Source: Rubrivivax sp. (GTDB taxonomy: Bacteria > Pseudomonadota > Gammaproteobacteria > Burkholderiales > Burkholderiaceae_C). From it: 13,614 nt of DNA. A program made the position numbers and the translations under genes. The stretch is from assembly GCA_027484885.1 (NCBI GenBank), contig JAIXSD010000686.1, positions 1 to 13,614 of the forward strand. The letters run 5' to 3'. Position 1 is the first letter of the stretch. Every line of letters begins with the position of its first letter. The notes below the pieces were generated by a model, which did no database searches, was not told the DNA's origin, and worked only from the letters and a program-made list of their open reading frames with translations. This document shows, one piece after another, positions 913-13,614 of the stretch.

Positions 913-976
913 CTCGTCGGGGCGGCATCGACCTGCACGAGGCCTGGCGCGCTGGCGTGAGCGGGTCAGGTCTTGC

Positions 977-992
977 TCAAGCGAAGGCTTGA
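977..992. terminator. Small hairpin between converging genes
   Basis: A perfect 6-bp stem (TCAAGC 977-982, GCTTGA 987-992) with a GAAG loop lies between the stop codons of two converging genes (912 and 1028). The position suits a bidirectional terminator, but the stem is short and no T-run follows on either strand. It is a weak candidate. Confidence 0.25.
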
Positions 993-1027
993 AACGCCAG
1001 GCCCGGCACTGAGCTGGCGGCCGGTCT

Positions 1028-1471
1028 TCACACCTTGGCGAGAAAAGCCGCCGCGTCACCTGCTTCACACGGCCAGTCGGCAAAAACGCCGACCAGATTG
1101 CATTCCACGCAGTGGCAGGCGATGTAGTACCAGCGCACCTTGTGCGTGCCCTCGACCACGGATACGCCGGACATCAGCTCGAACACCTCGTTCTCGCACA
1201 CGCACTCGTGCGTCTCGGGTTGCGCGCCTTCCAGGTGGTCGGCGCTGTCGCCCATCAGATGCTCTTGCCCGCAGTCGGTGCAGGTGCGGATGGCCACGCC
1301 GGCTTCTTCATCGCTCTGCAGCGCAAAGGTCCGGCAGCCGCAGTCGCTGCATTTGGAGGCGGCAAAGCGAGTGGCCTCGTGGCGGTTCGCGACGCTGTAG
1401 CTGCGCAGCTCGGCCTGGGTGTCGCCCGAGGTGGTGCCGTACCAGAACTCGCCTTTTTTTGTCAGTGCCAT
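1028..1471 (-). CDS. Cysteine-rich zinc-ribbon-like protein, unknown function
   Basis: 147 residues, no signal peptide or membrane segment, so probably cytoplasmic. I do not recognise the family. It has three clusters of cysteines: C41-S-D-C44-G-C46 and C64-T-D-C67-G, spaced like the two knuckles of a zinc ribbon; C90-V-C92; and C119-H-C121-V-E-C124, with C135 near the end. This pattern suggests one or two bound zinc ions. The N-terminal part (FWYGTTSGD, then SYSVANRHEATRFAASK) is basic and polar. The start at 1471 is chosen because GGAG lies 8 bases upstream; an upstream start at 1633 would add 54 residues of low-complexity, proline/arginine-rich sequence without support. It follows the solute-binding-protein gene on the same strand after 166 bp containing a possible terminator, so co-transcription is uncertain. 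A role in nucleic-acid or redox chemistry would be guesswork. Confidence 0.7.
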   Translation of the reverse strand: MALTKKGEFWYGTTSGDTQAELRSYSVANRHEATRFAASKCSDCGCRTFALQSDEEAGVAIRTCTDCGQEHLMGDSADHLEGAQPETHECVCENEVFELMSGVSVVEGTHKVRWYYIACHCVECNLVGVFADWPCEAGDAAAFLAKV

Positions 1472-1479
1472 GGATGTGG

Positions 1480-1483
1480 CTCC
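1480..1483 (-). promoter_or_regulatory. Ribosome binding site deciding the start at 1471
   Basis: GGAG on the minus strand, 8 bases before the ATG at 1471. It supports the short version of the zinc-ribbon-like gene over the longer open frame beginning at 1633. Confidence 0.6.
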
Positions 1484-1573
1484 ATTCTTTTCTCGCTCAT
1501 TCAGACATTCACTCAAGGTCGGCGGCTCGGCCGCCCTAACGCCAATCTCGCCCCGATGATCTGAATTTTGCCC

Positions 1574-1596
1574 GGACGCCCGGTGAAGCGGCGTCC
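1574..1596 (-). terminator. Hairpin downstream of the solute-binding protein gene
   Basis: Perfect 7-bp stem GGACGCC/GGCGTCC (1574-1580 with 1590-1596) and a 9-base loop, 42 bp past the stop of the binding-protein gene on the minus strand. On that strand it is followed by GGGCAAAATTC rather than a T-run, so it may be a terminator, a transcript-end stabiliser or chance. Confidence 0.3.
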
Positions 1597-1637
1597 AGGC
1601 CTCGGGTCTTGGGCGCGGGCCCCGTGGACACATCAGC

Positions 1638-2459
1638 TTATTTCACACGGTAGGCATCGAGATCACGCAGCCGGCCGATCTCCTGCCAAAAAGATTCGGC
1701 CGCCGAACGCCTGACGGGATCGAGGTCTTGCCGTATCGCAATATAGAAGTCCTGAGTGAGCAGCGAGGTGCGCAGCGCTTCCAGCTTGGGCAGGTCCTGC
1801 TCAGTCGGCTTTGAGCTGGCCAGGTAGGACTGAAGCGAGTATCGCGGCACGACCGCCAGATGGGTGCGTCCGGCCACGAGCTTGTTCAGAGCCTGCTCGT
1901 AGGAGGATGCTCCATCGTCGACTCTGGCGCCGACAGCAGTCAGGCGTTCCATCAGCAATGACACACCGCGCCGCACACCGATCAGGGGCTGAGCCTCTGG
2001 CGTGAAATCTCGGCCGTCCCAGTCGAAGTGGGTTCCGGCCCGCCGCACCAGGATGTACTCAATGGTCATCACTCGGCGCGATCGATCGATCTGCCGGTCA
2101 GCGAGTCGGGGAAAGGCGAAGGATTCGGTGTGCACCAAGATCGGGGCGGCAAACATGCCGTCGATCGCGCCGCTCAACAACAGAGCCCGGCATCTTGGCT
2201 GAGGCAAGCGCTCGAACTCAATCTGGAGTCTGGCGCCTTTGGCGGCGTCGCGAAGCAGCCGCTCCGTCAAACCAGGCCTGCTCTCATCACCACTGAAAAA
2301 CGGGGGCAGCGGCACATCGACCACACAAACGCGCAACACCTCATCGGGTGCAGCCAGAACGAGCCCTGAGGGCAGGCAAGAGAGCACAAGGGCGATGAGG
2401 CTTGCTGCAACAAGCCTCGAATTTCCTATCCCTGGGGGCTTTGGGAACTTCATGCGCAT
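1638..2459 (-). CDS. Periplasmic solute-binding protein (family 3-like), orphan
   Basis: 273 residues. An N-terminal signal peptide is visible: basic start (MRMKFPK), hydrophobic core at 17-35, likely cleavage after residue 36 (VLA-AP). The mature part has the layout of an extracellular solute-binding protein family 3 / type II periplasmic binding domain: a first strand VLRVCVVDVPLPPFF (41-55), a mid-segment IGVRRGVSLLM (160-170) typical of the second lobe, YEQALNKLVAGRTHLAVV (187-204) where ligand-dependent lobes rejoin, and FYIAIRQD (238-245) near the end. Such proteins bind amino acids or small anions, or act as sensory domains. No permease or ATPase is adjacent, so it may be a standalone sensor or serve a distant transporter. 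The start at 2459 has GGAG 8 bases upstream; an ATG at 2492 without a ribosome site would only lengthen the n-region. The ligand cannot be told. Confidence 0.75.
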   Translation of the reverse strand: MRMKFPKPPGIGNSRLVAASLIALVLSCLPSGLVLAAPDEVLRVCVVDVPLPPFFSGDESRPGLTERLLRDAAKGARLQIEFERLPQPRCRALLLSGAIDGMFAAPILVHTESFAFPRLADRQIDRSRRVMTIEYILVRRAGTHFDWDGRDFTPEAQPLIGVRRGVSLLMERLTAVGARVDDGASSYEQALNKLVAGRTHLAVVPRYSLQSYLASSKPTEQDLPKLEALRTSLLTQDFYIAIRQDLDPVRRSAAESFWQEIGRLRDLDAYRVK

Positions 2460-2467
2460 CCGAGCTG

Positions 2468-2471
2468 CTCC
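2468..2471 (-). promoter_or_regulatory. Ribosome binding site deciding the start at 2459
   Basis: GGAG on the minus strand with an 8-base spacer to the ATG at 2459. It favours this start over the ATG at 2492 and gives a normal-length signal peptide. Confidence 0.6.
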
Positions 2472-2552
2472 GGTACGTTGACCGCTCGTCAAAATGTAAC
2501 CGGTGTCGCGCCCAACCCATGAGGGCGCTCGCGCACGCGTGTCACCGGACCG

Positions 2553-2572
2553 CGGGACGGAGTCGCGTCCCG
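2553..2572. repeat. Inverted repeat, 7-bp stem
   Basis: CGGGACG (2553-2559) pairs perfectly with CGTCCCG (2566-2572) around a 6-base loop. It stands directly beside the longer 12-bp palindrome and belongs to the same structured intergenic island. Confidence 0.6.
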
Positions 2573-2576
2573 GTGC

Positions 2577-2609
2577 AGGGTCAGGCCTGGAATTTCAAGG
2601 CCTGACCCT
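2577..2609. repeat. Perfect 12-bp inverted repeat, REP-like element
   Basis: AGGGTCAGGCCT (2577-2588) and AGGCCTGACCCT (2598-2609) are exact reverse complements around the 9-base loop GGAATTTCA. It lies between the stop of the membrane-protein gene (2727) and the start of the binding-protein gene (2459), both minus strand, so it could terminate or stabilise the upstream transcript. No T-run follows. A degenerate second copy seems to follow at about 2634-2670, where GGGTCAGG, CCTTG-CGATT-CAAGG and GGACCCT recur in the same order. A family of dispersed repetitive extragenic palindromes is the likeliest explanation. Confidence 0.7.
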
Positions 2610-2712
2610 CTAGCCCGCTCTGCTCTGGCCCTGGGGTCAGGTGTTGCCTTGCGATTCAAGGTTGGACCCTCTGCCCCTGCTTTGTGGACCAGTGACCCTC
2701 TGGCCCGCTCTT
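2604..2712. repeat. Imperfect direct repeats GACCCTCT-GCCCGCTCT
   Basis: The string GACCCTCT(A/G)GCCCGCTCT occurs at 2604-2621 and again at 2694-2711 with one difference. A shorter related copy, GACCCTCTGCCCCTGCT, starts at 2665. The unit ends where the 12-bp palindrome's right arm begins, so the copies look like successive degenerate ends of one repeat element. Confidence 0.6.
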
Positions 2713-2726
2713 GCCCTCCCGCCTGG

Positions 2727-4859
2727 CTACCGTAGGCGCTTCAACACCTGTTCAGTGAACATGCGCACCATGAGCCCCGGCACGTCGTCGTAGGCGGGGC
2801 ATGTCCGGGCCCCATGCCAGCTGCGCTGTGACAGGTCTCCGCCGCCTCGGCGTGGCGGCGGCTGGTAGGCGTAGGCCTCGAGCTCGCCCAGGACCTGGCC
2901 TGAGCGTGTGTCGGTCACACGAACAAGGGCGCCGGCCACCCAATGCATGCGATCGCCGGCATGGCCATGGGGCAAGTAGCTGACGGCATACTGCGCCGCT
3001 TCGTCCGTCGGTATCGGCGCCGTGAGCAGCGTCTTGTCCGCCGCCAAGCGGTGGCGCAGGTAGCTGCCGTCGGGCTGGCGCACGTCGACAAAGTCGTAGC
3101 CCTTGAGCGTCACGCGGCTCGCGTCGAAGCCGGGGCTCCAGCCCGGGTGGTCGCGTCGGTCGTTGATCTCCACATCGAGGAAGGCGCGCACATAGGCCGT
3201 GCCGCCCGCGTCGCCGGGGATGCCCGCCTCGGGCCAGTCCCGGTCAGCATGGGCGTTCGGGGCCTCCTCACCACGCAGCTCGTCCAGGCGCACCCCGTCC
3301 ACGCCCCCGACCGGATATGAGCGACGTGCGCCGGCCGACCGGCATCGTGCTGCGAAGAGCGCCTCGCCAGCGCTTGTCTCGCGGGCCAAGGCGTCAGCCA
3401 CCGCGCGGCGGGCGGCAAACTCCCGCGCCGGCAGGGCGGCCAGCAGCGCCAGACCCCCGATCACCACACTCGCCATCACGCGCTGACGCGGCATGCGCAG
3501 CAGTAGACCGAAGGCGATCAGCAGCGCCGCCATGCCCACCGTCTGCATGAGGAGCAGGTGGCCTTGCGGCCCCAACAGCTGCGTTAACGGCACGCCGAGG
3601 CGCGGCGCCAGCCAGGTCAGCCGCAGGCATTGCAGCAGCTCCATCGGGCTGAGCATCAATCGTGCACCGGGTGCGCGCCCGGCGTAGATCATCAGCGCCG
3701 GCAAGACGACCAGTACCAGGCCGAGCACCAGGCCCAATGCCCGGGCGGCGCCGCGTGACGGGCGCCAGGCGCGCAGCACCAGCAGGCCCAGCAGCGCGCC
3801 CCCAGACCACAGCGCACCCAAGTACAAGCGCGCTTCGGTGTCGGGGCTGACAGCGTCCAGCCACCGTGCGGGCTCGGCCATGAGCTGGCGCCAGGCGATG
3901 CCCGGGGCAGCCTGCGGCGCGGCGGCTGCAAGCGGCGGTGTGGCCGGTGCAGTGGCAGTGGCAGTGGCAGTGGCAGTGGCAGTGGCCGGGGCCGGGGCCG
4001 GGGCAGGGGCCGATGGCGCCGATGAGGCTGCCTCGATCAGGCCGCCGGGCTTGTAGGTGAGCGAAGCTTGGCGGGTGGCACGGTCGTAAGTCCAGACATG
4101 CGTCACGCGGCCGCGCAGCACGTTGACCAGCGCAAACCGGTTGCCGTCTGCGAACACCTGCAGGCCGTCGAAGCTGCGCGTTGTCGGCTGGCGGGCCTCC
4201 GCAAGCTGGGGCAGAACTCCGTTCAGGGGACGGACCTCTTCAATCGCGCCTCGGGCATCCAGAAGCAGCAGTTCCGCCTCGGCCGATAGGGCTGCGAACC
4301 CGCCTGTGGCGGCGTTGAAGGCGAGGCTCGCGATGTTTTGGCTCTTGATCGGCCGAGCGTCCAGCCAGCGGCGCGCGCGCGTGTCGAAACGGTAGAACTG
4401 CGCATCGCTGCCGGTGGACACGATGGCGAGCACGCCCCGCGCTTCGTCCCAGGCCAGGCCGGTGGCCCAGGACAGCCGAGGCAGGTTCGGCGCTGGCGGC
4501 ACGTTCTGGCCGGGGGTGTCGCGCTCAGGCGCGTCTGCTGCGGACAGTTGCCAGGCCAGCATGCCGCCATTGCCGGTGAGGTAATAGGTTTCCAGGCCAT
4601 CGGCGCGCACGACCGCCGCGCTGACGGACTGCCGCGAGGAGAACCCGCCGCCCAGCACCTCGGCTGAAGGCGGCGTGCCGGCGCCCGGACCTGACGGTGT
4701 CCAGAGCAGGCGCGTGCCCTCCACATCGAGCAGACTGAAGTTCATCGGCGTCCCCGGCGCGTCTGCCGCTCTGACGGAGGCCAGCAACACGGACAGCAGC
4801 AGCCCTAGCAGGCCGATGAGCACGTGGGAAAAGCGAATTAGGCGCAAGGACGAGGGCAT
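2727..4859 (-). CDS. Large exported multi-pass membrane protein, unknown function
   Basis: 710 residues from the start chosen at 4859. Order of parts: an N-terminal signal or anchor helix (about 10-28); a domain to about 285 with short repeated strands and WTY/FDT/LLLDARG stretches reminiscent of a beta-propeller (inferred); an Ala-Pro/Ala-Thr linker (about 284-308); four predicted membrane helices (about 346-363, 373-394, 434-455, 462-477); and a C-terminal domain. That last domain begins FAARCRSAGARRSYPVGGVDGV (cysteine at 506), a pattern I associate with uncharacterised Cys-x-x-Ala-Gly proteins of Pseudomonas and Burkholderiales; this is recollection, not a search result. The C-terminal part contains many aromatic and charged residues. 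ATG 4859 has GGAG 4 bases upstream; ATG 4904 adds 15 residues, lacks a ribosome site and lengthens the n-region. It lies 322 bp behind the lipase gene on the same strand, so a shared function is possible. Not recognised with certainty. Confidence 0.7.
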   Translation of the reverse strand: MPSSLRLIRFSHVLIGLLGLLLSVLLASVRAADAPGTPMNFSLLDVEGTRLLWTPSGPGAGTPPSAEVLGGGFSSRQSVSAAVVRADGLETYYLTGNGGMLAWQLSAADAPERDTPGQNVPPAPNLPRLSWATGLAWDEARGVLAIVSTGSDAQFYRFDTRARRWLDARPIKSQNIASLAFNAATGGFAALSAEAELLLLDARGAIEEVRPLNGVLPQLAEARQPTTRSFDGLQVFADGNRFALVNVLRGRVTHVWTYDRATRQASLTYKPGGLIEAASSAPSAPAPAPAPATATATATATATAPATPPLAAAAPQAAPGIAWRQLMAEPARWLDAVSPDTEARLYLGALWSGGALLGLLVLRAWRPSRGAARALGLVLGLVLVVLPALMIYAGRAPGARLMLSPMELLQCLRLTWLAPRLGVPLTQLLGPQGHLLLMQTVGMAALLIAFGLLLRMPRQRVMASVVIGGLALLAALPAREFAARRAVADALARETSAGEALFAARCRSAGARRSYPVGGVDGVRLDELRGEEAPNAHADRDWPEAGIPGDAGGTAYVRAFLDVEINDRRDHPGWSPGFDASRVTLKGYDFVDVRQPDGSYLRHRLAADKTLLTAPIPTDEAAQYAVSYLPHGHAGDRMHWVAGALVRVTDTRSGQVLGELEAYAYQPPPRRGGGDLSQRSWHGARTCPAYDDVPGLMVRMFTEQVLKRLR
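3949..4008. repeat. Hexanucleotide tandem repeat inside the membrane-protein gene
   Basis: Six perfect copies of GCAGTG (3949-3984), then three of GCCGGG (3985-4002) and one GCAGGG (4003-4008). On the coding (minus) strand they encode Ala-Pro repeats followed by Ala-Thr repeats, the linker between the N-terminal domain and the first inner membrane helix. Each unit is 6 bp, so slippage changes the linker length by two residues without breaking the frame. Confidence 0.9.
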
Positions 4860-4980
4860 GGGTCTCCGGGCGGAACGGCTGGCGCCGAAAGCTGCGATTC
4901 TCATGGGATCGGGTAGATCTCGGACCCAAGGAGGCCAGGCCGCCGAGAACTACGTCACTGACCCTCGCCGCGTTCGAGGA

Positions 4981-5029
4981 GGCCGGCTGTGGCGCGAAGC
5001 CCCGCGCTTCAGCGCTTCAGGGGCCGGCC
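4981..5029 (-). terminator. Nested hairpin downstream of the lipase gene
   Basis: Outer arms GGCCGGC (4981-4987) and GCCGGCC (5023-5029) pair perfectly; inside, GAAGC (4996-5000) pairs with GCTTC (5006-5010) around CCCGC. It follows the lipase frame on the minus strand. No T-run, so it is only a candidate terminator or structured spacer. Confidence 0.3.
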
Positions 5030-5082
5030 TTCTTGATCCGCGAGCCTCCCTTCGAGCCTGCTTGGGCCTGTGAGAGCCTGGC

Positions 5083-5181
5083 TCAGGGCTGTGGGTTGGG
5101 GCTCAGGAGCAGGCGCAGATAGCTGCTGAAGTTTTCGACCGAGAACTCCACCTCCTTCAGATGTGGCAACCGCTTGAACAC
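5083..5181 (-). pseudogene. In-frame extension after the lipase stop, 32 codons
   Basis: Directly after the lipase TGA (5184-5182) the same frame runs on, starting with GTG at 5181, for 32 codons to a second TGA (5085-5083). The peptide (beginning VFKRLPHLKEVEF, ending RLLLSPNPQP) has an amphipathic, ordinary protein-like composition. Either the lipase was once longer and has gained a stop, or this is the surviving end of a lost neighbouring gene, or chance. No ribosome site was found for it as a separate gene. Confidence 0.35.
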
Positions 5182-6636
5182 TCAGCCTGCGGTGCAGGTG
5201 TTCTTGTCGCGCATCCAGTCGACCGTGCAGGTCTGGCCCTTGACCCGAACCTGGCACAGGCCCTCGACCTTCTTTCCGCCGTAGGTGTGGCTGTCATCCT
5301 TTTCTGCCACCGCCAGGGCCGCCATCTCTGGGCGAAAGCCAAAGGCGCCACCCGTGGGGTACTGAGCTACCCGCGCGGCAAGATTGCAGGCCAAAAGCGT
5401 GATCGAGTGGAGTTCCGTGCCCGACTGGAAGCTCCACTTGGGTTTTGCCGCAGCGACGACCGATCGACTTGAAGGGAAGTCAAAGATGACGTCCGTGCGC
5501 CCACTGCGCCGGACCGTGGTGTTTGCGGCGTTTGTAAAGATGCGAACGAGGCTCAAGGCTTCATCGTCTTGGGAAACCCGCACCACCTGTGGGTCTTGCA
5601 CAAATTCCGCCGAGGGATCGGCCATCTTCAATTGCTGCAGCCAGGTCCAACCCGTCACCGGGGAGGTGTTGAATGCGTAGGCTGCGGTGACCCGCCCGTC
5701 CAGGTAAGCCGCGAACTGCGCCAAGCCCCCGCCCAGCGAATGGCCTGCTGAATAAATATGGGGCGCCTTTCCACCGGGTCCTTCGCGGCTTAACTCTTCA
5801 ATCAAGCGCACGAGTTCTCTTTTGATGGCCTTGAACTGGGCCGGTGTGCGGTTCATGGCAGGTCCCAAGCTGGTGGCCCAGTCAGGCAAGATCTGGTCGC
5901 CGTAATCTTCGGTGCCCCGAAAGACGATGACCGCGTGCGTGATGGACCCAGGCTTGGGTTCAGCGGGGCCCGCACGGTAGGCAAAGGTCTCGTAAAACAA
6001 GCCGCCCTCCGACAAGCAGCCGACGGGCTTCCCGTCAGCGCCAGCCCTGAACCAGAGCTCCCAGCGACCGAGCTGCGACCCGGGGGCCAAAGTACCGGAC
6101 GGACCGTAGGCCTTGCCGTCGCCGCTCGCCGCCGCGTTGAGCCGGAGCAAGGGGTGCCCTTCAGCGGTGCAGGCCTTCTCCGGGAGATTTCGAATGGATT
6201 CATCCATGTGGCGTCGGTAGACCAATTTGGTGAGCATCGCCATCCACGCCACCTGACTCACCACTTCTTCAGCGGTTCGTGTCCCGTCGAGCGCGAGGGC
6301 TGGGTAGAACTCAATCGACGCAGGCTTGCTCACATCGGGCTCGTTGGGCAAGGGGCTGCCAGGAACCCGCCCGGCCGTATCCAATCGGCGTGTCGAGGAG
6401 TCCACCAAGGTCAGAAAGCAGTCGTGGGGCTTGGCCGCTGTGCCATCGCTGGCCGTGGCCGGGCTCTCGCCATCTTGCAGGCATTTGGAGAGCTGATCCG
6501 CCACCTGCTTGGACTGCCACTCCCGGTATTCTTTTGCGGCCTCGTAGGCTGGCAGGGTGCCGCACCCCGTCAGGCCCGCACAGGCGAAGACCAAGGTGGT
6601 GAGGCTTAGTGCTGCTGGGCCAAGTTTTGTCGGCAT
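5182..6636 (-). CDS. Lipase lipoprotein, class 3 alpha/beta hydrolase
   Basis: 484 residues. The N-terminus is a lipoprotein signal: hydrophobic core followed by L-T-G-C25, the lipobox whose cysteine is lipidated, so the enzyme is anchored in a membrane facing the periplasm or outside. The catalytic domain covers roughly 120-420. HAVIVFRGTED (234-244) is the strand and oxyanion-hole region of class 3 lipases; G298-H-S300-L-G-G is the nucleophile elbow with the catalytic serine. An aspartate at 357 or 384 and a histidine at 410 (ELHSITLL) are plausible partners by order, not proven. Eleven or so cysteines outside the signal, including C461, C470 and C481 near the end, suggest disulfides. Substrates would be ester lipids; the specificity is unknown. 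The ATG at 6636 has only a weak GGGA upstream. The next gene on this strand is the large membrane protein. Lipases with membrane neighbours occur in type VI effector loci, but no VgrG, PAAR or other secretion gene is seen here. Confidence 0.85.
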   Translation of the reverse strand: MPTKLGPAALSLTTLVFACAGLTGCGTLPAYEAAKEYREWQSKQVADQLSKCLQDGESPATASDGTAAKPHDCFLTLVDSSTRRLDTAGRVPGSPLPNEPDVSKPASIEFYPALALDGTRTAEEVVSQVAWMAMLTKLVYRRHMDESIRNLPEKACTAEGHPLLRLNAAASGDGKAYGPSGTLAPGSQLGRWELWFRAGADGKPVGCLSEGGLFYETFAYRAGPAEPKPGSITHAVIVFRGTEDYGDQILPDWATSLGPAMNRTPAQFKAIKRELVRLIEELSREGPGGKAPHIYSAGHSLGGGLAQFAAYLDGRVTAAYAFNTSPVTGWTWLQQLKMADPSAEFVQDPQVVRVSQDDEALSLVRIFTNAANTTVRRSGRTDVIFDFPSSRSVVAAAKPKWSFQSGTELHSITLLACNLAARVAQYPTGGAFGFRPEMAALAVAEKDDSHTYGGKKVEGLCQVRVKGQTCTVDWMRDKNTCTAG

Positions 6637-7238
6637 ATGTCAGTCCCGTGGTTTGGATTGAGCCTCTAGGCAATGATGAGAGCAAGCGTGTTCAGCTCTC
6701 TAGATCGGCGCCGCGCTATCGTGTCGCGCAATGAGCCGTCCGACATCGGTAGCAGCCCTATCCATAGTTTGGTTGTTTCAAGCGGGTCTTCCGTGCCAGA
6801 GCTGGGTCGGGCCCTTGATTTGACGGCATGCAGTTCGCGTGCACGTTCTGGCGCCTGGTTCGACGCCGCCGGCCAAGAGCATCGCCCCGCTCTGGCTGTC
6901 GCCTGCGGCACCCAGGGCTCTGCTGCCGCGTCCGCCTTTGTAATGCTGTACCGGCTTTCCAGCGGCTCGGTGCGGTGAGGGTCTCTGGCGCCGGAGTGAG
7001 GAATGCAGCTGGCGAAGACGACGGGCGACGTAGCGCACGGCGGGAGGCAGGAGGGACATGTGGGGACTGTTGGAAATGCGCGCGCCGGGATTTCTAATTG
7101 AGACTTGACCCTCGGGTGTGTTTGTGCGGCGGCCTAGGCAACACCTGGGTTCTGCCGTCAACGCAGCGTCCTTCCGACCAGGCGATCCCGCACCTCGCAG
7201 GCAATCCGGGCCGCTCATGCCGGTATTCGCTCAACACT
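6637..7238. other. Gene-poor region upstream of lipase and sugar operon
   Basis: About 600 bp with no gene I can support. Minus-strand open frames (6666-6911 and 6778-7218) show no motif, no ribosome site and arginine/proline/serine-rich composition typical of non-coding GC-rich DNA. A plus-strand 32-codon frame at 7003-7101 has AGGA close before its ATG but no recognisable product. A 6-bp inverted repeat GAGAGC/GCTCTC lies at 6678-6700. The lipase promoter should be here (minus strand), yet no pair of good -35/-10 boxes was found. It may be a decayed gene or a dispersed repeat. Confidence 0.45.
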
Positions 7239-7251
7239 TGTTTAGTAAACA
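7239..7251. promoter_or_regulatory. Probable upstream operator for the LacI-family regulator
   Basis: TGTTTA-G-TAAACA is a perfect 13-bp palindrome, AT-rich inside GC-rich DNA. It lies 33 bp before the -35 box of the promoter at 7284, upstream of a LacI-family gene; such regulators bind palindromes of this size and usually sit near their own genes. A second site with the same core is at 7377-7387. Confidence 0.65.
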
Positions 7252-7283: not shown

Positions 7284-7312
7284 TTGACGCTCAAAAAAGC
7301 GCTGGATATAAA
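7284..7312 (+). promoter_or_regulatory. Sigma70-type promoter for the mannose operon
   Basis: TTGACG (7284-7289), a 17-base spacer and TATAAA (7307-7312): five of six bases match consensus in each box and the spacing is ideal. Transcription should begin near 7319-7321, giving a leader of about 206 bases before the regulator's ATG at 7527. The flanking palindromes imply repression by the LacI-family protein. Confidence 0.7.
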
Positions 7313-7376: not shown

Positions 7377-7387
7377 GTTTATTAAAC
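7377..7387. promoter_or_regulatory. Probable downstream operator
   Basis: GTTTA-T-TAAAC, an 11-bp palindrome with an odd centre, shares the ten symmetric core bases of the site at 7239-7251. Its centre (7382) is 137 bp from the other centre (7245), and it lies about 63 bp after the predicted transcription start. Two such sites around a promoter suggest cooperative binding or looping. Confidence 0.55.
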
Positions 7388-7526: not shown

Positions 7527-8528
7527 ATGAGCGGAAACGGCAGCGGGGTCACCATCCGCGATATCGCCGAGGCCACGGGCTTGTCGATCGGCACCGTGTC
7601 GCGGGCGCTGAAGAACCAGGCCGGCATGACCGAGGTGACGCGCAACAAGGTGCGCGAGGCGGCGCAGCGGCTCGGTTATGACCTCTCGCAGCTGAAGAAG
7701 GGGCGCATCCGGCGCATCGCCTTCTTGCTGCACAGCCAGCACAACACGCTGGCCTCAAGCCCTTTCTTCTCGCCGGTGTTGCATGGCGCCGAGGCAGCCT
7801 GCCGGCGCGAGGGGATTGCGCTGTCCTTCATCGTCGTGGGCCCGGCCGAGCCGGTGCTGGAGCAGGTGCGTGTGCATGCGCCCGATGCGATCTTGTGCGC
7901 GGGCTTCTTCGAGCCCGAGGTGCTGAGCGCGCTGATGCTGACGGGCAAGCCCATGGTGCTGGTGGACATGAACCGGCGCGGCATGTCCTCGATCAACCCG
8001 GACAATGTGCTGGGCGGCTACCTGGCCACGCGGCACCTGCTGCGCAATGGCAAGCGGCGCATCGCCATGCTGTCGGGCTCGCCGGCGCACTACAGCATCC
8101 AGCAGCGCATCCGCGGCTTTCGCCGTGCGCTGTTCGAGGCCAAGGTGCATGCCGACCCAGAGCTTGAAGTCATCGTGCCCACCATGGGCGAGGGCGACGA
8201 GGGCGTGATGGAGGCCATGCGCAGCCTGCTGGCCCTGCCCAAGCGGCCCGACGCCGTGTTTTGCTACAACGACAGCACCGCCCTGGTGGCGATGAAGACC
8301 TGCGTCAACGAAGGCTTGAAGATCCCCTACGACATCATGGTTGTCGGCTTCGACGACATCAGCAGCGCGGCCGTGGCCGTGCCGCCGCTGAGCACGGTGC
8401 ATGTGGACAAGGAGGCGCTGGGTGCCTCGGGCGTGGAGTTATTGCTGCGCCTCAAACCCGATGAGCCCCCCACCGAACTGGTTCTGCCGGTCGAGATGAT
8501 CGTGCGTGAAAGCAGCAGTGACGATTGA
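7527..8528 (+). CDS. LacI-family transcriptional regulator of mannoside use
   Basis: 333 residues. Residues 8-30 (VTIRDIAEATGLSIGTVSRALKN) are the LacI-type helix-turn-helix, and the DNA-binding domain runs to RLGYD at about 52. The effector domain follows: FFSPVLHGAEAACRREGI (about 80-97), ILCAGFFEP, VLVDMNRRG, the hinge-facing ISMLS-like stretch RRIAMLSGSP, PDAVFCYNDSTALVAMK and VVGFDDISSAAVAVPPLSTVHVD, all standard for sugar-binding LacI proteins. The segment linking the two domains is about four residues shorter than usual and lacks the Pro-Asn…Ala-Arg-x-Leu hinge helix. The start at 7527 is preferred over TTG 7497 because the family's N-terminus begins a few residues before the helix-turn-helix and a GGGGT lies about 8 bases upstream. 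It is the first gene of the sugar operon and probably represses it through the two palindromes before it. The effector could be mannose, fructose or a mannosyl oligosaccharide. Confidence 0.92.
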   Translation: MSGNGSGVTIRDIAEATGLSIGTVSRALKNQAGMTEVTRNKVREAAQRLGYDLSQLKKGRIRRIAFLLHSQHNTLASSPFFSPVLHGAEAACRREGIALSFIVVGPAEPVLEQVRVHAPDAILCAGFFEPEVLSALMLTGKPMVLVDMNRRGMSSINPDNVLGGYLATRHLLRNGKRRIAMLSGSPAHYSIQQRIRGFRRALFEAKVHADPELEVIVPTMGEGDEGVMEAMRSLLALPKRPDAVFCYNDSTALVAMKTCVNEGLKIPYDIMVVGFDDISSAAVAVPPLSTVHVDKEALGASGVELLLRLKPDEPPTELVLPVEMIVRESSSDD

Positions 8529-8618
8529 TTCATTCATGGACCCATTCCCCCACATGCAAGGCATGGCCATGAAGCGATCGAAACCCGCCTCACGCCTCTA
8601 ACTTTTCAATTCACCACC

Positions 8619-9863
8619 ATGTCCAATCTCCCCGACTTTCGCTCTCGGGCGGTGCTGCTCGCCCATGCGCAGCACAGCATGAGCTTCTACCACCCGCGCT
8701 GCATCGACTGGAGCGGTGGCATGTACCACTTCTTCAAGGACGACGGCAGCGTCTACGACGCCGAGCAGCGCCACCTGGTCAGCAGCACGCGCTTCGTCTT
8801 CACCTACGCCATGGCCTACCGCCATTTCGGCGAGCCGGAGTACCTGGACGGCCTGCGCCATGCGCTGAAGTTCCTGCGCGAAGCTCACCGCGACACCGAG
8901 TTCGGCGGCTACAGCTGGCTGCTGCGTTGCCACAGTGGCGGCCGTGAGGTGCTGGACGGCACCCAGCATGCCTACGGCCAGGCCTTTGTGCTGCTGGCCT
9001 ACTCGCATGCGCTGATGGCCGGGCTGGAAGAGGCGGGCCCCTGGGTGGCCGAGACCTTCGCGCTGATGGAGCGCAGCTTCTGGGAGCCCGAGGCCGGTCT
9101 CTACGCCGACGAAGCCAGCCGCGACTGGCGCGAGCGCGGAAGCTACCGCGGCCAGAACGCGAACATGCACGCCTGCGAGGCCCTGCTGGCCGCCTACCGT
9201 GCCACGGGCGAAACGCGTTATCTGGAACGCGCCTACACCGTGGCCTTCAACATCACCCAGCGCCAGGCCGAGCGCTGCGGCGGCCTGATCTGGGAACACT
9301 ACGACAGCAACTGGCAGCCCGACTGGCAGTTCAACATCAACGACCCGGCCAATCTCTTCCGCCCCTGGGGCTACCAGCCCGGCCATTTCACCGAATGGGC
9401 CAAGCTGCTGCTGCAGCTGGAGTCGCTGGGCGGCGTGCTGGAGCGCGACCTGAGCTGGGCTCTGCCCACGGCCGAGCGCCTGTTCAAGGTGGCGGTGGAG
9501 AAGGGCTGGCATGCCGAGCATGGCGGCCTGTGCTACTCCATCTCGCCCGAGCTGGTGATCTGCGACGCGGACAAGTACTTCTGGGTCCAGGCCGAGAGCG
9601 CGGCCGCCGCCGCCCTGCTGGCCCAACGCACCCAGCACCCCTTCTACTGGGACTGGTACGAGCGCCTCTGGGCCTACAGCTGGACGCATTTTGTCGATCA
9701 CGAGCATGGCGCCTGGTGGCGCATCCTCGATGCGCAGAACCGCAAGTACAGCGACGAGAAGAGCCCGGCCGGCAAGGTGGACTATCACACCATGGGTGCC
9801 TGCTACGACATCGTGGCGGTGCTGGATGCCGCCGGCGCGGCCGAGGGGCGAGGCCATGCATGA
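8619..9863 (+). CDS. AGE-superfamily sugar isomerase, probably D-mannose isomerase
   Basis: 414 residues, no signal peptide, cytoplasmic. It is an (alpha/alpha)6-barrel protein of the N-acylglucosamine 2-epimerase superfamily, of the normal length for the mannose isomerase/YihS branch. The residues reported as catalytic in YihS-type isomerases have matching positions and spacing here: R58 (VSSTRF), H184 (RGQNANMH), H256 and E259 (GYQPGHFTEW), and H390 (DYHTMGA). The expected reaction is D-mannose to D-fructose, perhaps also lyxose/xylulose; cellobiose epimerase or sulfoquinovose isomerase activity is less likely given the neighbouring mannosidases. It begins 90 bp after the regulator gene without a clear ribosome site and overlaps the next gene by 8 bases (ATGCATGA). 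It supplies the substrate of the kinase that follows. Confidence 0.9.
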   Translation: MSNLPDFRSRAVLLAHAQHSMSFYHPRCIDWSGGMYHFFKDDGSVYDAEQRHLVSSTRFVFTYAMAYRHFGEPEYLDGLRHALKFLREAHRDTEFGGYSWLLRCHSGGREVLDGTQHAYGQAFVLLAYSHALMAGLEEAGPWVAETFALMERSFWEPEAGLYADEASRDWRERGSYRGQNANMHACEALLAAYRATGETRYLERAYTVAFNITQRQAERCGGLIWEHYDSNWQPDWQFNINDPANLFRPWGYQPGHFTEWAKLLLQLESLGGVLERDLSWALPTAERLFKVAVEKGWHAEHGGLCYSISPELVICDADKYFWVQAESAAAAALLAQRTQHPFYWDWYERLWAYSWTHFVDHEHGAWWRILDAQNRKYSDEKSPAGKVDYHTMGACYDIVAVLDAAGAAEGRGHA

Positions 9864-10797
9864 CGCCCCGCTGATGCTCTGCGTCGGCGAGGCGCTGACC
9901 GACATGATCCACCAGGGCGGGGCGCAGTGGCTGGCCCGCGTGGGCGGCTCCACCTGGAATGTGGCGCGTGCGCTGGCCGCGCTGGGCGAGCGCACTGCGT
10001 TTGCCGGTGCCGTCAGTGCCGACCGATTTGGTGATGAGCTCTGGGCCGCCAGCGAGGCCGTGGGCCTGGATCTGCGCCTGATGCAGCGCGCGCCGCACTC
10101 GCCCCTGCTGGCCATGGTGGAGCAGGGCGAGCCGCCACGCTACTTCTTCATCGGCGACGACAGCGCTGACCTTTATTTCGACCCCACGGTCCTGCCCGAG
10201 GGCTGGTCGCGCAAGCTGCGCTGGGCGCATTTCGGCGGCATCAGCCTGGCGCGCGAGCCCCTGGCCGGCCGCCTGGTCGCCTTGGCCGAGCATTTGAAAG
10301 AGCAGGGCGTGGCCATCAGCTACGACCCGAATTACCGCAAGGTGATGGACGAACGCTACACGCCGACGCTCCATCGCATGGCCGCGGTCGCCGACCTGAT
10401 CAAGGTCTCGGACGACGACCTGCGCGGTTTGTTCCCTGGGCTGGAACTGGATGCGGCGCTGCAGCGCCTGCGCGCGCTCAACCCCAGCGCGCTGTGCCTG
10501 CTGACCCGCGGTGGCCATGGTGCCAGCCTCTACCGTGGCGACGAGCGTGTGGACGCCTTGGCGCCGGCCGTGGCGGTGGTGGACACGGTGGGTGCGGGCG
10601 ATGCCAGCGCCGCCGGCCTGCTCTACAGCCTCAGCCGCCACCCTGATCGCCCTTTGCAAGCCCATCTGCACGCGGCGCTGGCCGCCGGCTCCGCCGCCTG
10701 CCTGCAGTCGGGCGCCACCCCACCGACCCCGCTGGCCATGGGCCAGTTGTTCGATCAGCTTCAAGAACAGCACGTGAAAGAGAAGGTTCCCTCATGA
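9856..10797 (+). CDS. PfkB-family sugar kinase, probably fructokinase
   Basis: 313 residues, cytoplasmic. The N-terminus MLCVGEALTDMI (7-18) and V-G-G-S-T-W-N-V-A-R-A-L-A-A-L-G (29-44) are the first PfkB signature and sugar-binding region. YDPNYR (156-161) and LIKVSDDDL follow in the usual order, and D243-T-V-G-A-G-D249 is the second signature with the anion hole and catalytic base D249. Length is normal for fructokinases. The start at 9856 is well placed, with AGGGGCGAGG upstream; earlier in-frame starts would lie inside the isomerase gene. It overlaps the isomerase stop by 8 bases and its own stop overlaps the next start as ATGA, so translation is probably coupled. In context it should convert fructose to fructose 6-phosphate with ATP, completing a mannose route that avoids mannose 6-phosphate. 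Another ketose or 2-keto-3-deoxygluconate as substrate is possible but fits the neighbours less well. Confidence 0.9.
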   Translation: MHDAPLMLCVGEALTDMIHQGGAQWLARVGGSTWNVARALAALGERTAFAGAVSADRFGDELWAASEAVGLDLRLMQRAPHSPLLAMVEQGEPPRYFFIGDDSADLYFDPTVLPEGWSRKLRWAHFGGISLAREPLAGRLVALAEHLKEQGVAISYDPNYRKVMDERYTPTLHRMAAVADLIKVSDDDLRGLFPGLELDAALQRLRALNPSALCLLTRGGHGASLYRGDERVDALAPAVAVVDTVGAGDASAAGLLYSLSRHPDRPLQAHLHAALAAGSAACLQSGATPPTPLAMGQLFDQLQEQHVKEKVPS

Positions 10798-12257
10798 GTC
10801 ACCGATTCTTGCCCTTGATTTCTTTGTCTTCGATTTCTTTGTCCTCGATGTCCTCGTCCTTGGTCCCGGCTCCGGCGCGCCGCGCGCTCAGCGGCCTGTG
10901 CCTGGCTGCCCTGGCCTCCATGGCCCAGGCTGCGCCGCTGCCCGCGCTGAAGCCTGTCAGCGAGGCCGAATCGGCCCAGCTGGCCCAGCGCGTCAAGGAA
11001 GAAACCCGCCACGCCTGGCGCGGCTACAAGCAGTACGCCTGGGGCCAGGACGCCCTCAAGCCGCTGAGCAAGAGCAGCCACAACTGGTACAAGAGCTCGC
11101 TGCTGATGACCCCGGTCGATGCGCTGAGCACCTTGCTGGTGATGGGACTGAAGGAAGAGTCCGACGAAGCGCGCGAGCTGATCGCCAGCCAGCTGAACTT
11201 CGACCAAGACCTCTCGGTGCAGAACTTCGAGATCACCATCCGCCTGCTGGGCGGCCTGGTGTCTGCCTACCAGCTCAGCGGCGATGCCCGCCTGCTGGCC
11301 AAGGCGGAAGACCTGGGCCGGCGCCTGCTGCCGGTGTTCGAGTCGCCCACCGGCCTGCCCTACACCCATGTCAATCTGCGCAGCGGCAAGGTCAGCGGCA
11401 CGATCAGCAACCCGGCCGAGACCGGCACGCTGATCATCGAGTTCGGCATGCTGAGCAAGCTGACCGGCCAGCCGATCTACTTTGAGAAAGCCAAGCGCGC
11501 CCTGGTGGAAACCTACCGCCGCGCTTCACCGGACGGCGTGGTCGGCTCGGCCATCAATGTCGAGACCGGCCGCTGGGAGCGCACCGACGCCCACATTGGC
11601 GGCGGCATCGATTCCTACTACGAGTACCTGTACAAATGCTGGCGCCTGTTCGGTGACAAGGAGTGCAAGGCCATGTGGGACCACAGCATCGCCGGTGTCA
11701 ACAAGGTGCTGGGCGACGAGACCCAAACCGGCTTCTGGTACGGCCACGCCGACATGAACACCGGCCGCCGCACCAAGACGCAGTACGGCGCGCTGGACGC
11801 CTTCATGCCAGCCCTGCTGGCCATCGGCGGCGATCTCAAGCGCGCCCGCAAGCTGCAGGAATCCAACCTGCGCATGTGGCGCCTGCATGGCATCGAGCCC
11901 GAGTCCATGGACTACAAGACCATGAAGGTGCTGTCGCCCGAGTACGCGCTGCGCCCCGAGATCGTTGAGTCGGCCTACTACCTGCACCAGCTCACCGGTG
12001 ACACCCGCTACCGCGCCATGGGCCGCGAGTTCTTCGAGGACTTCGTGCGCCACTGCCGCACGGAAGCGGGCTATGCGGCGCTGAAGGATGTGCGCACCAA
12101 GGTGCATGAAGACTCGATGGAGAGCTTCCTCTTCGCCGAGACCTTCAAGTACTTCTACCTGCTGTTCTCGCCGAAATCGGTGCTGGACTTTGACGCCGTG
12201 ACCTTCAACACCGAAGCCCACCCGATGCGCCTGTCGGCGCCGGTGCAGGCGCGCTGA
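10794..12257 (+). CDS. Secreted GH47 alpha-1,2-mannosidase
   Basis: 487 residues. It has an export signal (hydrophobic core about 31-44, cleavage near MAQA-AP, 46/47) behind an unusual serine-rich repeat. The rest matches glycoside hydrolase family 47, the inverting, calcium-dependent class I alpha-1,2-mannosidases. TRHAWRGYKQYAWGQDALKPLS (71-92) and TPVDALSTLLVMGL (106-119) are the N-terminal family motifs. FEITIRLLGGLVSAYQLSGD carries acidic E146 (E330 of human ER mannosidase I), GGIDSYYEYLYK carries D273 (D463), and LRPEIVESAYYL carries E389 (E599, probable base) and E392. The final FNTEAHP holds T473, the calcium-binding threonine. All key residues are present, so the enzyme should be active. 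It trims terminal alpha-1,2-mannose from high-mannose N-glycans or fungal mannan. It overlaps the kinase stop by 4 bases, with GAAGG 7 bases before its ATG. GH47 is mainly eukaryotic; bacterial members, such as the Caulobacter one, are few. Confidence 0.93.
   Translation: MSHRFLPLISLSSISLSSMSSSLVPAPARRALSGLCLAALASMAQAAPLPALKPVSEAESAQLAQRVKEETRHAWRGYKQYAWGQDALKPLSKSSHNWYKSSLLMTPVDALSTLLVMGLKEESDEARELIASQLNFDQDLSVQNFEITIRLLGGLVSAYQLSGDARLLAKAEDLGRRLLPVFESPTGLPYTHVNLRSGKVSGTISNPAETGTLIIEFGMLSKLTGQPIYFEKAKRALVETYRRASPDGVVGSAINVETGRWERTDAHIGGGIDSYYEYLYKCWRLFGDKECKAMWDHSIAGVNKVLGDETQTGFWYGHADMNTGRRTKTQYGALDAFMPALLAIGGDLKRARKLQESNLRMWRLHGIEPESMDYKTMKVLSPEYALRPEIVESAYYLHQLTGDTRYRAMGREFFEDFVRHCRTEAGYAALKDVRTKVHEDSMESFLFAETFKYFYLLFSPKSVLDFDAVTFNTEAHPMRLSAPVQAR
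10817..10860 (+). repeat. 15-bp tandem repeat in the GH47 signal region
   Basis: GATTTCTTTGTC(T/C)TC occurs twice in tandem (10817-10831, 10832-10846), and a shorter degenerate unit follows (GATGTCCTCGTCCT). It is AT-richer than its surroundings and encodes Leu-Ser-Ser-Ile-Ser-type repeats ahead of the true signal peptide. An ATG at 10848 (residue 19) inside it would give a conventional signal peptide on its own. Confidence 0.75.
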
Positions 12258-12300
12258 GCAAGGGGCTTGCAATGAAGCAATTGGCTAGGTTGTGTATTCG

Positions 12301-12336
12301 GGTGCCACTGCGTGAGACGCAGGCTGGCGGCGCACC
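12301..12336 (+). repeat. Compound hairpin after the GH47 gene
   Basis: CTGCGT (12308-12313) pairs perfectly with ACGCAG (12317-12322) around GAG; an outer pair GGTGC (12301-12305)/GCACC (12332-12336) can close it. It lies 44 bp past the GH47 stop and may protect the transcript end or act with the next hairpin. Confidence 0.4.
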
Positions 12337-12356
12337 CCTGCGACTCCATGTCCTCC

Positions 12357-12380
12357 GCCCGCTTCGCGGGCTCCCCCTTT
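12357..12380 (+). terminator. Possible terminator of the LacI-GH47 operon
   Basis: GCCCGC (12357-12362) and GCGGGC (12366-12371) form a perfect 6-bp GC stem with a TTC loop, followed by TCCCCCTTT with only three T in a row. Placement after the operon suits a terminator, probably leaky. Confidence 0.4.
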
Positions 12381-12526
12381 ACTTACGTCGCAGGGGCACG
12401 CCACCAGTCTGCTTGGCGCCTGTAACGAACGGGGATTTTGCGGAACGCCAGATGGTGGACCGCGGCGGATGGTGGATGGGTGCGGCCACGGAAGTCAAGG
12501 AGGAGGTCGCGGAGCGGCCGGGGGAC

Positions 12527-13614
12527 ATGAAGTGGACGTACTCAGCCGCCGTCCGCCGCAACGCCTGGTCGTTGCGCATGCGCAGCCTGCTGGGCTTGCT
12601 GGCCGGCTTCTGCCTGCTGCCGGCCGCCGTGCCGCTGCAGGCCGAGGCGGCCCCGCTCAGCGCGGGCAGCATGCCGGTCAACACCTTCATCGGCACCCAG
12701 GACGACGGCAACACCTTCCCCGGTGCGTCGGCGCCCTTCGGCATGATCCAGGTCAGCCCGACTGGCGAGCATTACGCCGGCTGGCGCTACAACGACACGC
12801 GCATCCGCGGCTTCGGCCACTCCTACCTGTCCGGCGCGGGCTGCTGGGAGCAGGGCGGCCAGCTCTCGGTGTTGCCGGTCACGGGGCGCATCGCCCCGGG
12901 CGGTGATTTCGACACGGCCAAGGTCGGCAGCTTCGACCACAAGCGCTACGCGGCCGAGTACACGCATGCGGGCGAAGTGGGGCAGGCCGGTTACTACAAG
13001 GTGCAGCTGACCAGCTATGGCGGCATCACCGCCGAAGCCACGGCCCTGACCCGCGCGGCGGCCGAGCGCTACAGCTTTGCCGCCGGCGTGCCCACCGGCC
13101 ATGTGCTGGTCAATGTGGGCCAGGCCAACGAGAAGCACTCGGTGGTCGGCAGCGAGCTGCGCGTGGGAGACGACCAGCGCAGCATCGAAGGCAAGATCAC
13201 GACCAAGAGCTTTTGCGGCGGCGCTCAGTACACCACCTGGTTCCGCATGGTCTTCGACCGGCCTTTTGTGGCCCATGGCATCTGGGACGGCGCCGGCGCC
13301 TGGCCGGGCGCCAAAGGCCCCAGCCACCAAGGCGAAGCGCGCCCGCATGGCGCCTGGCTGAGCTTTGACCTGCAAGGCGGCAAGGCGGCGGTGACGGCGG
13401 TCAGCGCCATTTCGCATGTCGATGCCGAAGGCGCACGTATCAATCTGCGCGCCGAAGGCCTGGCCCCAGGCGGCGAGCCGCTGAGCTTCGACGCCATGCG
13501 CGCCAAGGCCGAGGCCAACTGGCAGCGTGAGCTCAGCAGCGTGCGCATCGAAGGCGGCAGCGTGGACGACCGCACCGTGTTCTACACCGCGCTCTACCAC
13601 TCGCTCTTGCAGCC
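12527..13614 (+). CDS. Secreted GH92 alpha-mannosidase (3' end missing)
   Basis: The first 362 codons are present; the frame is open at the window's right edge. A signal peptide is visible: basic n-region, hydrophobic core at about 20-38, cleavage near QAEA-AP (41/42). The mature start VNTFIGTQDDGNTFPGASAPFG (51-72) and the following YAGWRYNDTRIRGFGHSYLSGAGC (83-106) are hallmarks of glycoside hydrolase family 92, as is FYTALYHSLLQ at the right edge. GH92 enzymes are inverting, calcium-dependent exo-alpha-mannosidases acting on alpha-1,2, alpha-1,3, alpha-1,4 or alpha-1,6 bonds; the catalytic acidic residues and calcium site lie mostly beyond the window, so the bond specificity is not shown. 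The ATG at 12527 has a G-run directly before it; the ATG at 12578 also gives a fair signal peptide, and ATG 12476 would add 17 residues. It probably works with GH47 on the same glycan. Confidence 0.92.
   Translation, partial: MKWTYSAAVRRNAWSLRMRSLLGLLAGFCLLPAAVPLQAEAAPLSAGSMPVNTFIGTQDDGNTFPGASAPFGMIQVSPTGEHYAGWRYNDTRIRGFGHSYLSGAGCWEQGGQLSVLPVTGRIAPGGDFDTAKVGSFDHKRYAAEYTHAGEVGQAGYYKVQLTSYGGITAEATALTRAAAERYSFAAGVPTGHVLVNVGQANEKHSVVGSELRVGDDQRSIEGKITTKSFCGGAQYTTWFRMVFDRPFVAHGIWDGAGAWPGAKGPSHQGEARPHGAWLSFDLQGGKAAVTAVSAISHVDAEGARINLRAEGLAPGGEPLSFDAMRAKAEANWQRELSSVRIEGGSVDDRTVFYTALYHSLLQ

Follow-up and report, generated by a model that had tools for sequence, protein, structure and literature searches.

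We analyzed a 13,614-nucleotide stretch of DNA from Rubrivivax sp. (assembly GCA_027484885.1), called the window below, for a set of genes predicted to act on alpha-mannosides. The window is the entire contig C194 of a metagenome-assembled genome (MAG; G000), an assembly of 4.06 Mb in 779 contigs that is 76% complete. An earlier, sequence-only reading had placed a LacI regulator, an AGE protein, a PfkB kinase, a GH47 and a GH92 in one direction at 7527-13614. Coordinates, strand and Pfam matches all agree with this, with the GH92 gene partial. Since the window is a whole contig and GH92 runs to its end, this gene is truncated.

7527-8528, + strand: LacI-family regulator, 333 aa, ATG start at 7527 (PF13377, 3e-35; PF00356, 8e-11)
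8619-9863, + strand: AGE-superfamily protein, probable D-mannose isomerase, 414 aa (PF07221, 1.5e-110)
9856-10797, + strand: PfkB-family kinase, probable fructokinase, 313 aa (PF00294, 4e-39)
10794-12257, + strand: GH47, probable alpha-1,2-mannosidase, 487 aa (PF01532, 2e-124)
12272->13614, + strand: GH92 alpha-mannosidase, cut by the contig end (PF17678, the N-terminal domain, 5e-54; start of PF07971)

The AGE and PfkB reading frames overlap by 8 bases, and those of PfkB and GH47 by 4 bases.

The cluster in relatives and in the source genome

The five genes had been described as a compact operon. Their single direction is as described, but they are merely the second part of a cluster of eleven genes that includes PNGase F, GH31, GH2 and a TonB receptor. 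In Paucibacter sp. Y2R2-4 (genome G407, locus L009) and in genome G401 the order is TonB receptor, Trp-halogenase-like gene, GH2, GH31, PNGase F, LacI, AGE, PfkB, GH47, GH92 and MFS permease. These eleven genes are contiguous, with no further called gene between them; the codon-score gene caller used for the relatives was trained on the window and L009 genes and lists nothing shorter than 60 aa. Four genomes of the genus have PNGase F, GH31 and GH2 upstream in the same direction and a GluP-type MFS permease downstream. In two of the relatives, G404 (locus L006) and G409 (locus L007), PNGase F and LacI are parted by a variable insert of 4.9 and 9.5 kb, respectively.

Each of the eleven genes is found, whole or in part, in the MAG itself; they are spread over five contigs and follow the order of G404. 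The contigs have 82-95% DNA identity to the G404 region. As all five match this region in the same order, we infer that they are neighbors in the organism.

C56 (L116): start of the TonB receptor
C632 (L131): receptor end, halogenase-like gene, GH2, part of GH31
C272: PNGase F without its start
C194: the window
C762: end of GH92 (most of the part missing from the window), MFS permease

The PNGase F of Y2R2-4 has three Pfam domains and scores 654 bits to PNGF-II in the PDB, and full-length frames are present in four relatives. The cluster of these relatives, like C272 for the gene without its start, therefore holds an enzyme of the N-glycan-releasing kind. An importer and exo-glycosidases are present as well, in the form of the TonB receptor (with domains identified on the L010 homologue), GH2 (of the beta-mannosidase type in L009), GH31, GH47 and GH92.

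GH47 is rare in this order. It was found in one of 399 genomes sampled from the order, the window's own, and in 5 of 18 genomes of the genus. PNGase F occurs in the same 5 of 18 (four genus genomes and the MAG); the chance of two identical sets at random is 1 in 8568, with kinship ignored. Relatives of the cluster GH31 with 77-100% identity occur in the same five genomes, and the remaining genomes give 28-36% matches or none.

We then compared 80 loci (L006-L085), the best 80 of 395 encoded GH47 relatives in bacterial genomes, so that the counts describe the close relatives of this GH47 only. Locus groups were assigned by hand, and a gene was taken as present if tblastn gave a match of more than 100 aligned residues to the G407 protein. 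Within the stretches examined, the 20 Burkholderiales loci contain GH92 (20), AGE (18), PfkB (18), MFS (16), LacI (14), GH2 (14), TonB receptor (9), GH31 (8), the halogenase-like gene (7) and PNGase F (3). The LacI orthologue lies upstream of AGE in these 14 loci, with 66-100% identity. The 26 Xanthomonadales-type loci contain LacI (23), AGE (21), PfkB (21), GH2 (21), MFS (20) and GH92 (19), with PNGase F in none. AGE is also present in four of six other Pseudomonadota loci.

GH47 is found together with AGE, PfkB and GH92 in 18 of the 20 Burkholderiales loci, so that the gene set is more than a chance grouping. The four also occur together in 17 of the 26 Xanthomonadales-type loci. In the Xanthomonadales-type loci, identities to G407 are 56-61% for AGE, 57-62% for GH2, 63-77% for GH47 and 61-71% for GH92 (except in L059 and L075, whose GH92 is distant, at 32-33%), against 30-34% for LacI and 27-31% for PfkB, which are not close relatives. 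One such PfkB, that of L038, was compared with the PDB; its closest match is 3ljs, deposited as Fructokinase (406 bits). The same functional set thus seems to have come together around different regulators and kinases, an argument that the pathway is real.

Several features lie next to the cluster genes. Window positions 1-7236 are an apparent variable insert between PNGase F and LacI, as in G404 and G409. It holds a truncated serine hydrolase (1-912, PF00144) and open frames at 1028-1633, 1638-2492, 2727-4904 and 5182-6636, none with a Pfam match; the protein of 1028-1471 is found again in the G404 and G409 inserts. The Trp_halogenase relative (PF04820, shown on the L015 homologue) lies between the TonB receptor and GH2 in four relatives and at 3604-5094 of C632. 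Divergent from the TonB receptor on C56, positions 966-2824 hold a ROK-family kinase and a gene that by eye looks CutC-like; visual inspection also showed a similar pair close to the cluster in G407 and G401. The ROK kinase is nearest to an N-acetylglucosamine (GlcNAc) kinase model, below its cut-off, and may use GlcNAc, glucose or mannose.

Predicted activities of the enzymes

The GH47 protein matches the whole domain PF01532 over residues 72-479 (416 bits; cut-off 22.9). Residues E146, D273, E389 and T473 align with the catalytic and calcium-binding residues of human endoplasmic reticulum (ER) mannosidase I, presumably E330, D463, E599 and T688, and are invariant in all 20 aligned proteins (that of the window and 19 relatives). 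The statement that this GH47 retains all catalytic residues thus holds against the human set. The best PDB match is 4ayo (260 bits), and human ER mannosidase I (1x9d) scores 254 bits. The named proteins among the closest relatives are from Paucibacter, with 96-97% identity. By homology, the protein is a probable alpha-1,2-mannosidase, of a family known chiefly from eukaryotes (animals, plants and fungi).

For GH92, a likely signal-peptide start is near 12527 or 12578. We considered predicting its linkage specificity from the histidine that precedes the GN(E/Q)P stretch. This residue is present in the five displayed PDB GH92 alignments and absent from the full-length GH92 of L006 (11440-14217). 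A conserved histidine is also reported for a probable alpha-1,3 enzyme (PMC5930347; papers given by PMC number, here and below, are cited from passages of their text). The prediction was therefore dropped, and no linkage is drawn.

Closest to the AGE protein in the PDB are 3gt5 (527 bits) and 5x32 (462 bits). Both carry GlcNAc 2-epimerase names from their depositors (N-acylglucosamine 2-epimerase for 5x32), while 5x32 is named a Marinomonas D-mannose isomerase in the literature (PMC7762179). A Pseudomonas geniculata enzyme modeled on 5x32 has D-mannose isomerase activity, with the lowest Km for mannose, and three active-site histidines are described for this type (PMC7762179). The AGE protein has conserved histidines at 184, 256 and 390, whose equivalence to the 5x32 positions was judged by eye on the alignment. 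It is a probable D-mannose isomerase.

The PfkB protein has a GAGD motif at residue 246, and its best PDB match is the Fructokinase 5ey7 (97 bits). We regard it as a probable fructokinase. Homology of the two proteins supports the proposed conversion of mannose to fructose and then to fructose 6-phosphate.

Judged by eye, PNGase F, GH31, GH2, GH47 and GH92 begin with signal-peptide-like stretches, and AGE and PfkB do not. The glycan would therefore be trimmed outside the cytoplasm and the sugar metabolized within it.

The GH31 of L009 scores 526 bits to maltase-glucoamylase, 442 bits to alpha-glucosidase II and 403 bits to neutral alpha-glucosidase AB, which we take to be the alpha subunit of ER glucosidase II. 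The Undibacterium loci have a GH31 only 38% identical to it. GH97 is present in L014, L015, L016, L026 and L035, and GH99 directly follows GH47 in two Lysobacter loci (L023, 11284-12381; L019, 11299-12396). GH31 or GH97 occurs in 12 of the 20 Burkholderiales loci, or 14 with longer stretches of L006 and L007. This distribution fits the removal of a glucose cap. GH97 is linked to galactose-capped mannan, and GH99 is an endo-enzyme used on yeast mannan (PMC10154615). Because GH97 may thus act on galactose and GH99 on mannan, glucose as the target is put forward conditionally.

Putative LacI operators

Upstream of LacI, two copies of a palindrome bracket a promoter-like pair of hexamers.

7240-7250, + strand: operator O1, GTTTAGTAAAC (palindrome GTTTANTAAAC), exact match, similar position in relatives
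7284-7312, + strand: promoter-like pair, TTGACG (7284-7289), 17 bases, TATAAA (7307-7312)
7377-7387, + strand: operator O2, GTTTATTAAAC, 137 bases from O1

Similar hexamers were seen by eye in several other upstream regions. A consensus promoter scanner, whose rule requires a T at the end of the second hexamer, reported none at 7284-7312.

The sequence GTTTANTAAAC is an 11-base odd palindrome that was first noticed by eye in the upstream regions and then scanned genome-wide. The window has two exact copies, against 0.03 sites expected at up to one mismatch. The 18 genomes have 15 exact sites, 14 of them in the five locus-bearing genomes and one in the other 13. All 14 lie upstream of LacI or of the TonB receptor (up to about 530 bases). 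The lone outside site falls inside a mechanically delimited open frame of G403, and the 12 kb read there contain no cluster gene. A control pattern made of the same letters reversed gave 33 forward sites in the 18 genomes, where the operator gave 15; eight of the 33 fall in the locus-bearing genomes. The raw count of sites is not unusual by this measure; their placement is.

All 20 Burkholderiales loci have GTTTANTAAAC, with at most one mismatch, within 400 bases before a match to LacI, AGE, MFS, GH47 or the TonB receptor. An operator so placed was found in only one of the 60 other loci (L035), and in none of the 26 Xanthomonadales-type loci, whose LacI differs. The two sites before LacI are 134-139 bases apart in 13 of the 14 LacI-bearing Burkholderiales loci and 148 in L026; those before the receptor are 121-124 bases apart in the six cases measured. 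Pairs of this kind would be expected for a repressor looping DNA across a promoter. The locus has what would characterize a LacI regulon, a LacI protein together with conserved palindromic operators at putatively regulated promoters.

Four loci (L014, L015, L016 and L026) carry, besides a second and distant GH92, another LacI of about 60% identity that has a GTTTAGTAAA(T/A) pair of its own, spaced 113 bases apart. These units, at 16453-18663, 16203-18337, 16237-18398 and 16235-18396, respectively, are apparently paralogous copies of the regulatory unit.

Substrate, alternatives and known systems

We consider it likely that the window holds the second transcription unit of an eleven-gene, LacI-controlled high-mannose N-glycan utilization cluster of Paucibacter-like Burkholderiales, in which mannose is used via fructose and fructose 6-phosphate. 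Gene content, gene order, co-occurrence, catalytic residues and operator distribution of the cluster were observed directly. Foreign glycoproteins would be stripped of their oligomannose N-glycans by PNGase F, and these glycans would reach the periplasm through the TonB-dependent receptor. There, any glucose at the chain ends would be cleaved off by GH31. GH47 would remove the alpha-1,2-mannoses and GH92 further alpha-mannoses, and the core beta-mannose would be the target of GH2. Mannose would enter the cytosol through a GluP/FucP-type permease; AGE would isomerize it there to fructose, from which the PfkB kinase would make fructose 6-phosphate. LacI would repress both transcription units from the GTTTANTAAAC operator pair at each promoter. 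It would probably do so by DNA looping, and the inducer would be mannose or an early mannoside product. In this scheme every enzyme activity, the order of the steps, the localization, LacI binding and the inducer are deduced from homology and context.

The proposed scheme leaves a GlcNAc2 unit after the core beta-mannose step, and the cluster has no dedicated enzyme for it. In Rudaea (L060) a GH20 gene lies close to GH47, and matches to this GH20 were obtained in eight other loci.

Several observations weigh against the proposed N-glycan function. AGE scores 239 bits to the NCBIfam D-mannose isomerase equivalog NF051846, below the cut-off of 600, and is thus named by its relation to 5x32 only; a Stenotrophomonas AGE relative scores 212 bits to the same model. 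PfkB gives 133 bits to the fructokinase equivalog NF006957 (cut-off 450), yet this is the best of 21 models; its substrate is therefore taken from context. AGE is missing from five of the 26 Xanthomonadales-type loci and from all 28 more distant ones. L010 and L012 have GH47, GH92 and operators but, in the stretches examined, no match to AGE, PfkB or LacI. PNGase F is matched in only three of the 20 Burkholderiales loci within these stretches, and in a fourth (L007) it lies farther off, so the other 16 may obtain the glycan otherwise. In the MAG, PNGase F is without its start as C272 ends there, the receptor is known from its two ends, and GH31 from part only. Finally, mannose or GlcNAc could instead be a substrate of the ROK kinase next to the TonB receptor.

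The sequence-only reading had left the substrate as high-mannose glycan or fungal mannan. As the rest of the cluster has PNGase F, GH31, GH2 and a TonB receptor, we favor N-glycans. Feeding on fungal or algal cell-wall alpha-mannan, with PNGase F just releasing mannan from mannoproteins, is unlikely. It would agree with the occurrence of GH92 and GH2 in an operon for fungal mannan (PMC10154615), with the GH99 that follows GH47 in the two Lysobacter loci and with GH97 near GH47 in five loci. However, GH76, an endo-enzyme family used on yeast mannan, was found in none of the 18 genus genomes by a search that was positive in two of 14 control genomes, and the run of eleven adjoining called genes in G401 and G407 has no GH76, GH99 or GH125. 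The presence of PNGase F is consistent with N-glycans, and so is that of a GH31 whose best PDB matches include ER glucosidase II. Fungal mannan as the main substrate was placed second after the GH76 result and the finding of PNGase F in the cluster.

It is also improbable that the isomerase and kinase serve free mannose or mannosides generally, with GH47 and GH92 as loosely attached accessories. Across the 18 genus genomes, AGE relatives have at least 82% identity in the five locus-bearing genomes and 60-64% in six that lack GH47; one genome has a weak match and six have none. AGE is thus not specific to N-glycans, a further point against the N-glycan reading, and the genes manI, manK, manP and manR are listed for mannosides in Shewanella (PMC2996990). 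Against this stand the overlapping frames up to GH47, the shared operators and the recurrence of AGE and PfkB with GH92 in the Burkholderiales and Xanthomonadales-type loci. It seems very improbable to us that the substrate of AGE is a different sugar (sulfoquinovose, GlcNAc or cellobiose) and that the kinase phosphorylates the product formed from it, even though the superfamily is functionally mixed, 3gt5 and 5x32 carry GlcNAc 2-epimerase labels, and no curated equivalog cut-off is reached. The scores are 157 bits to sulfoquinovose isomerase, at most 75 bits to the 8h1 set of N-acylglucosamine 2-epimerases and at most 60 bits to cellobiose 2-epimerases, against 462 bits to 5x32, and the three conserved histidines are as in the mannose isomerase type (PMC7762179). 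The sulfoquinovose and cellobiose isomerases, which the sequence-only reading had named as the cases that would overturn it, are disfavored as the identity of AGE by these PDB scores and were set aside.

The components of the N-glycan cluster are of known kinds, and PNGases and bacterial N-glycan loci have been described before (PMC10154615, PMC5700972). A 2023 review of N-glycan degradation by bacteria gives GH38, GH92 and GH125 as the families of the high-mannose exo-mannosidases characterized so far and leaves GH47 and GH31 unmentioned (PMC10154615). The suggestion that the combination may not have been described agrees with our search: in the open-licence papers searched we found no regulated locus that has this mannose route together with GH47, PNGase F and an alpha-glucosidase. 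What appears undescribed is the union of the mannose route with PNGase F and an alpha-glucosidase under one operator. The locus gives bacterial GH47 a concrete physiological role that is open to testing, and it supplies the enzyme set together with PNGase F, which may yield new tools for N-glycan processing. Cultured strains of Paucibacter, Massilia and Duganella offer a way to test the regulator-operator pair. The locus also suggests that such bacteria harvest eukaryotic glycoproteins.

The nix cluster of Xanthomonas campestris is likewise a proteobacterial N-glycan cluster with a TonB-dependent receptor and several glycoside hydrolases (PMC5700972). It has an alpha-L-fucosidase, a beta-galactosidase and a hydrolase of the GlcNAc-GlcNAc bond (PMC5700972), none of which is among the eleven assigned called genes of G401 and G407, whereas the present cluster has PNGase F, GH31, GH47, its own LacI, an isomerase and a kinase. 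The high-mannose locus of Bacteroides thetaiotaomicron shares a release enzyme, glycan import and exo-mannosidases within the cell envelope, but uses GH18 and three GH92 enzymes in place of PNGase F and GH47, and the passages available name no LacI or isomerase-kinase route (PMC10154615). The bacterial GH47 of Caulobacter K31 (CkGH47; PDB 4ayo), the best PDB match of the window GH47, cleaves alpha-1,2-mannobiose. In the text available it is a model enzyme for inhibitors, with no gene cluster or physiological role given (PMC10685318). The Shewanella genes manR, manI, manK and manP also join a regulator and a permease in one mannoside pathway, for which the accessible text names no GH47 or PNGase F (PMC2996990). 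The products of manI and manK are presumably a mannose isomerase and a kinase.

Eukaryotic ER processing of N-glycans uses glucosidase II, ER mannosidase I and peptide N-glycanase; PNGase F belongs to another family than the cytosolic eukaryotic PNGase. We tentatively raise the possibility, which we hold to be less than even, that the Burkholderiales locus is a catabolic counterpart of the ER trimming of glucosylated oligomannose N-glycans. It would combine PNGase F, a glucosidase-II-like GH31, a GH47 of the ER mannosidase I family, GH92, GH2 and the route from mannose via fructose to fructose 6-phosphate. A single LacI would control the whole, and within the five locus-bearing genomes exact copies of its operator are confined to this locus. 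In relatives, the place of this GH31 would be taken by a GH31 of an unrelated clade or by GH97, and in Lysobacter by a GH99 of the endomannosidase type. If so, the substrates would include immature Glc1-3Man9 glycans, which no bacterial system met in the open-licence literature searched is said to target. The two systems share the GH31 and GH47 families and, as proposed here, deglucosylation before alpha-1,2-trimming. The present one differs in being catabolic, bacterial and probably extracytoplasmic.

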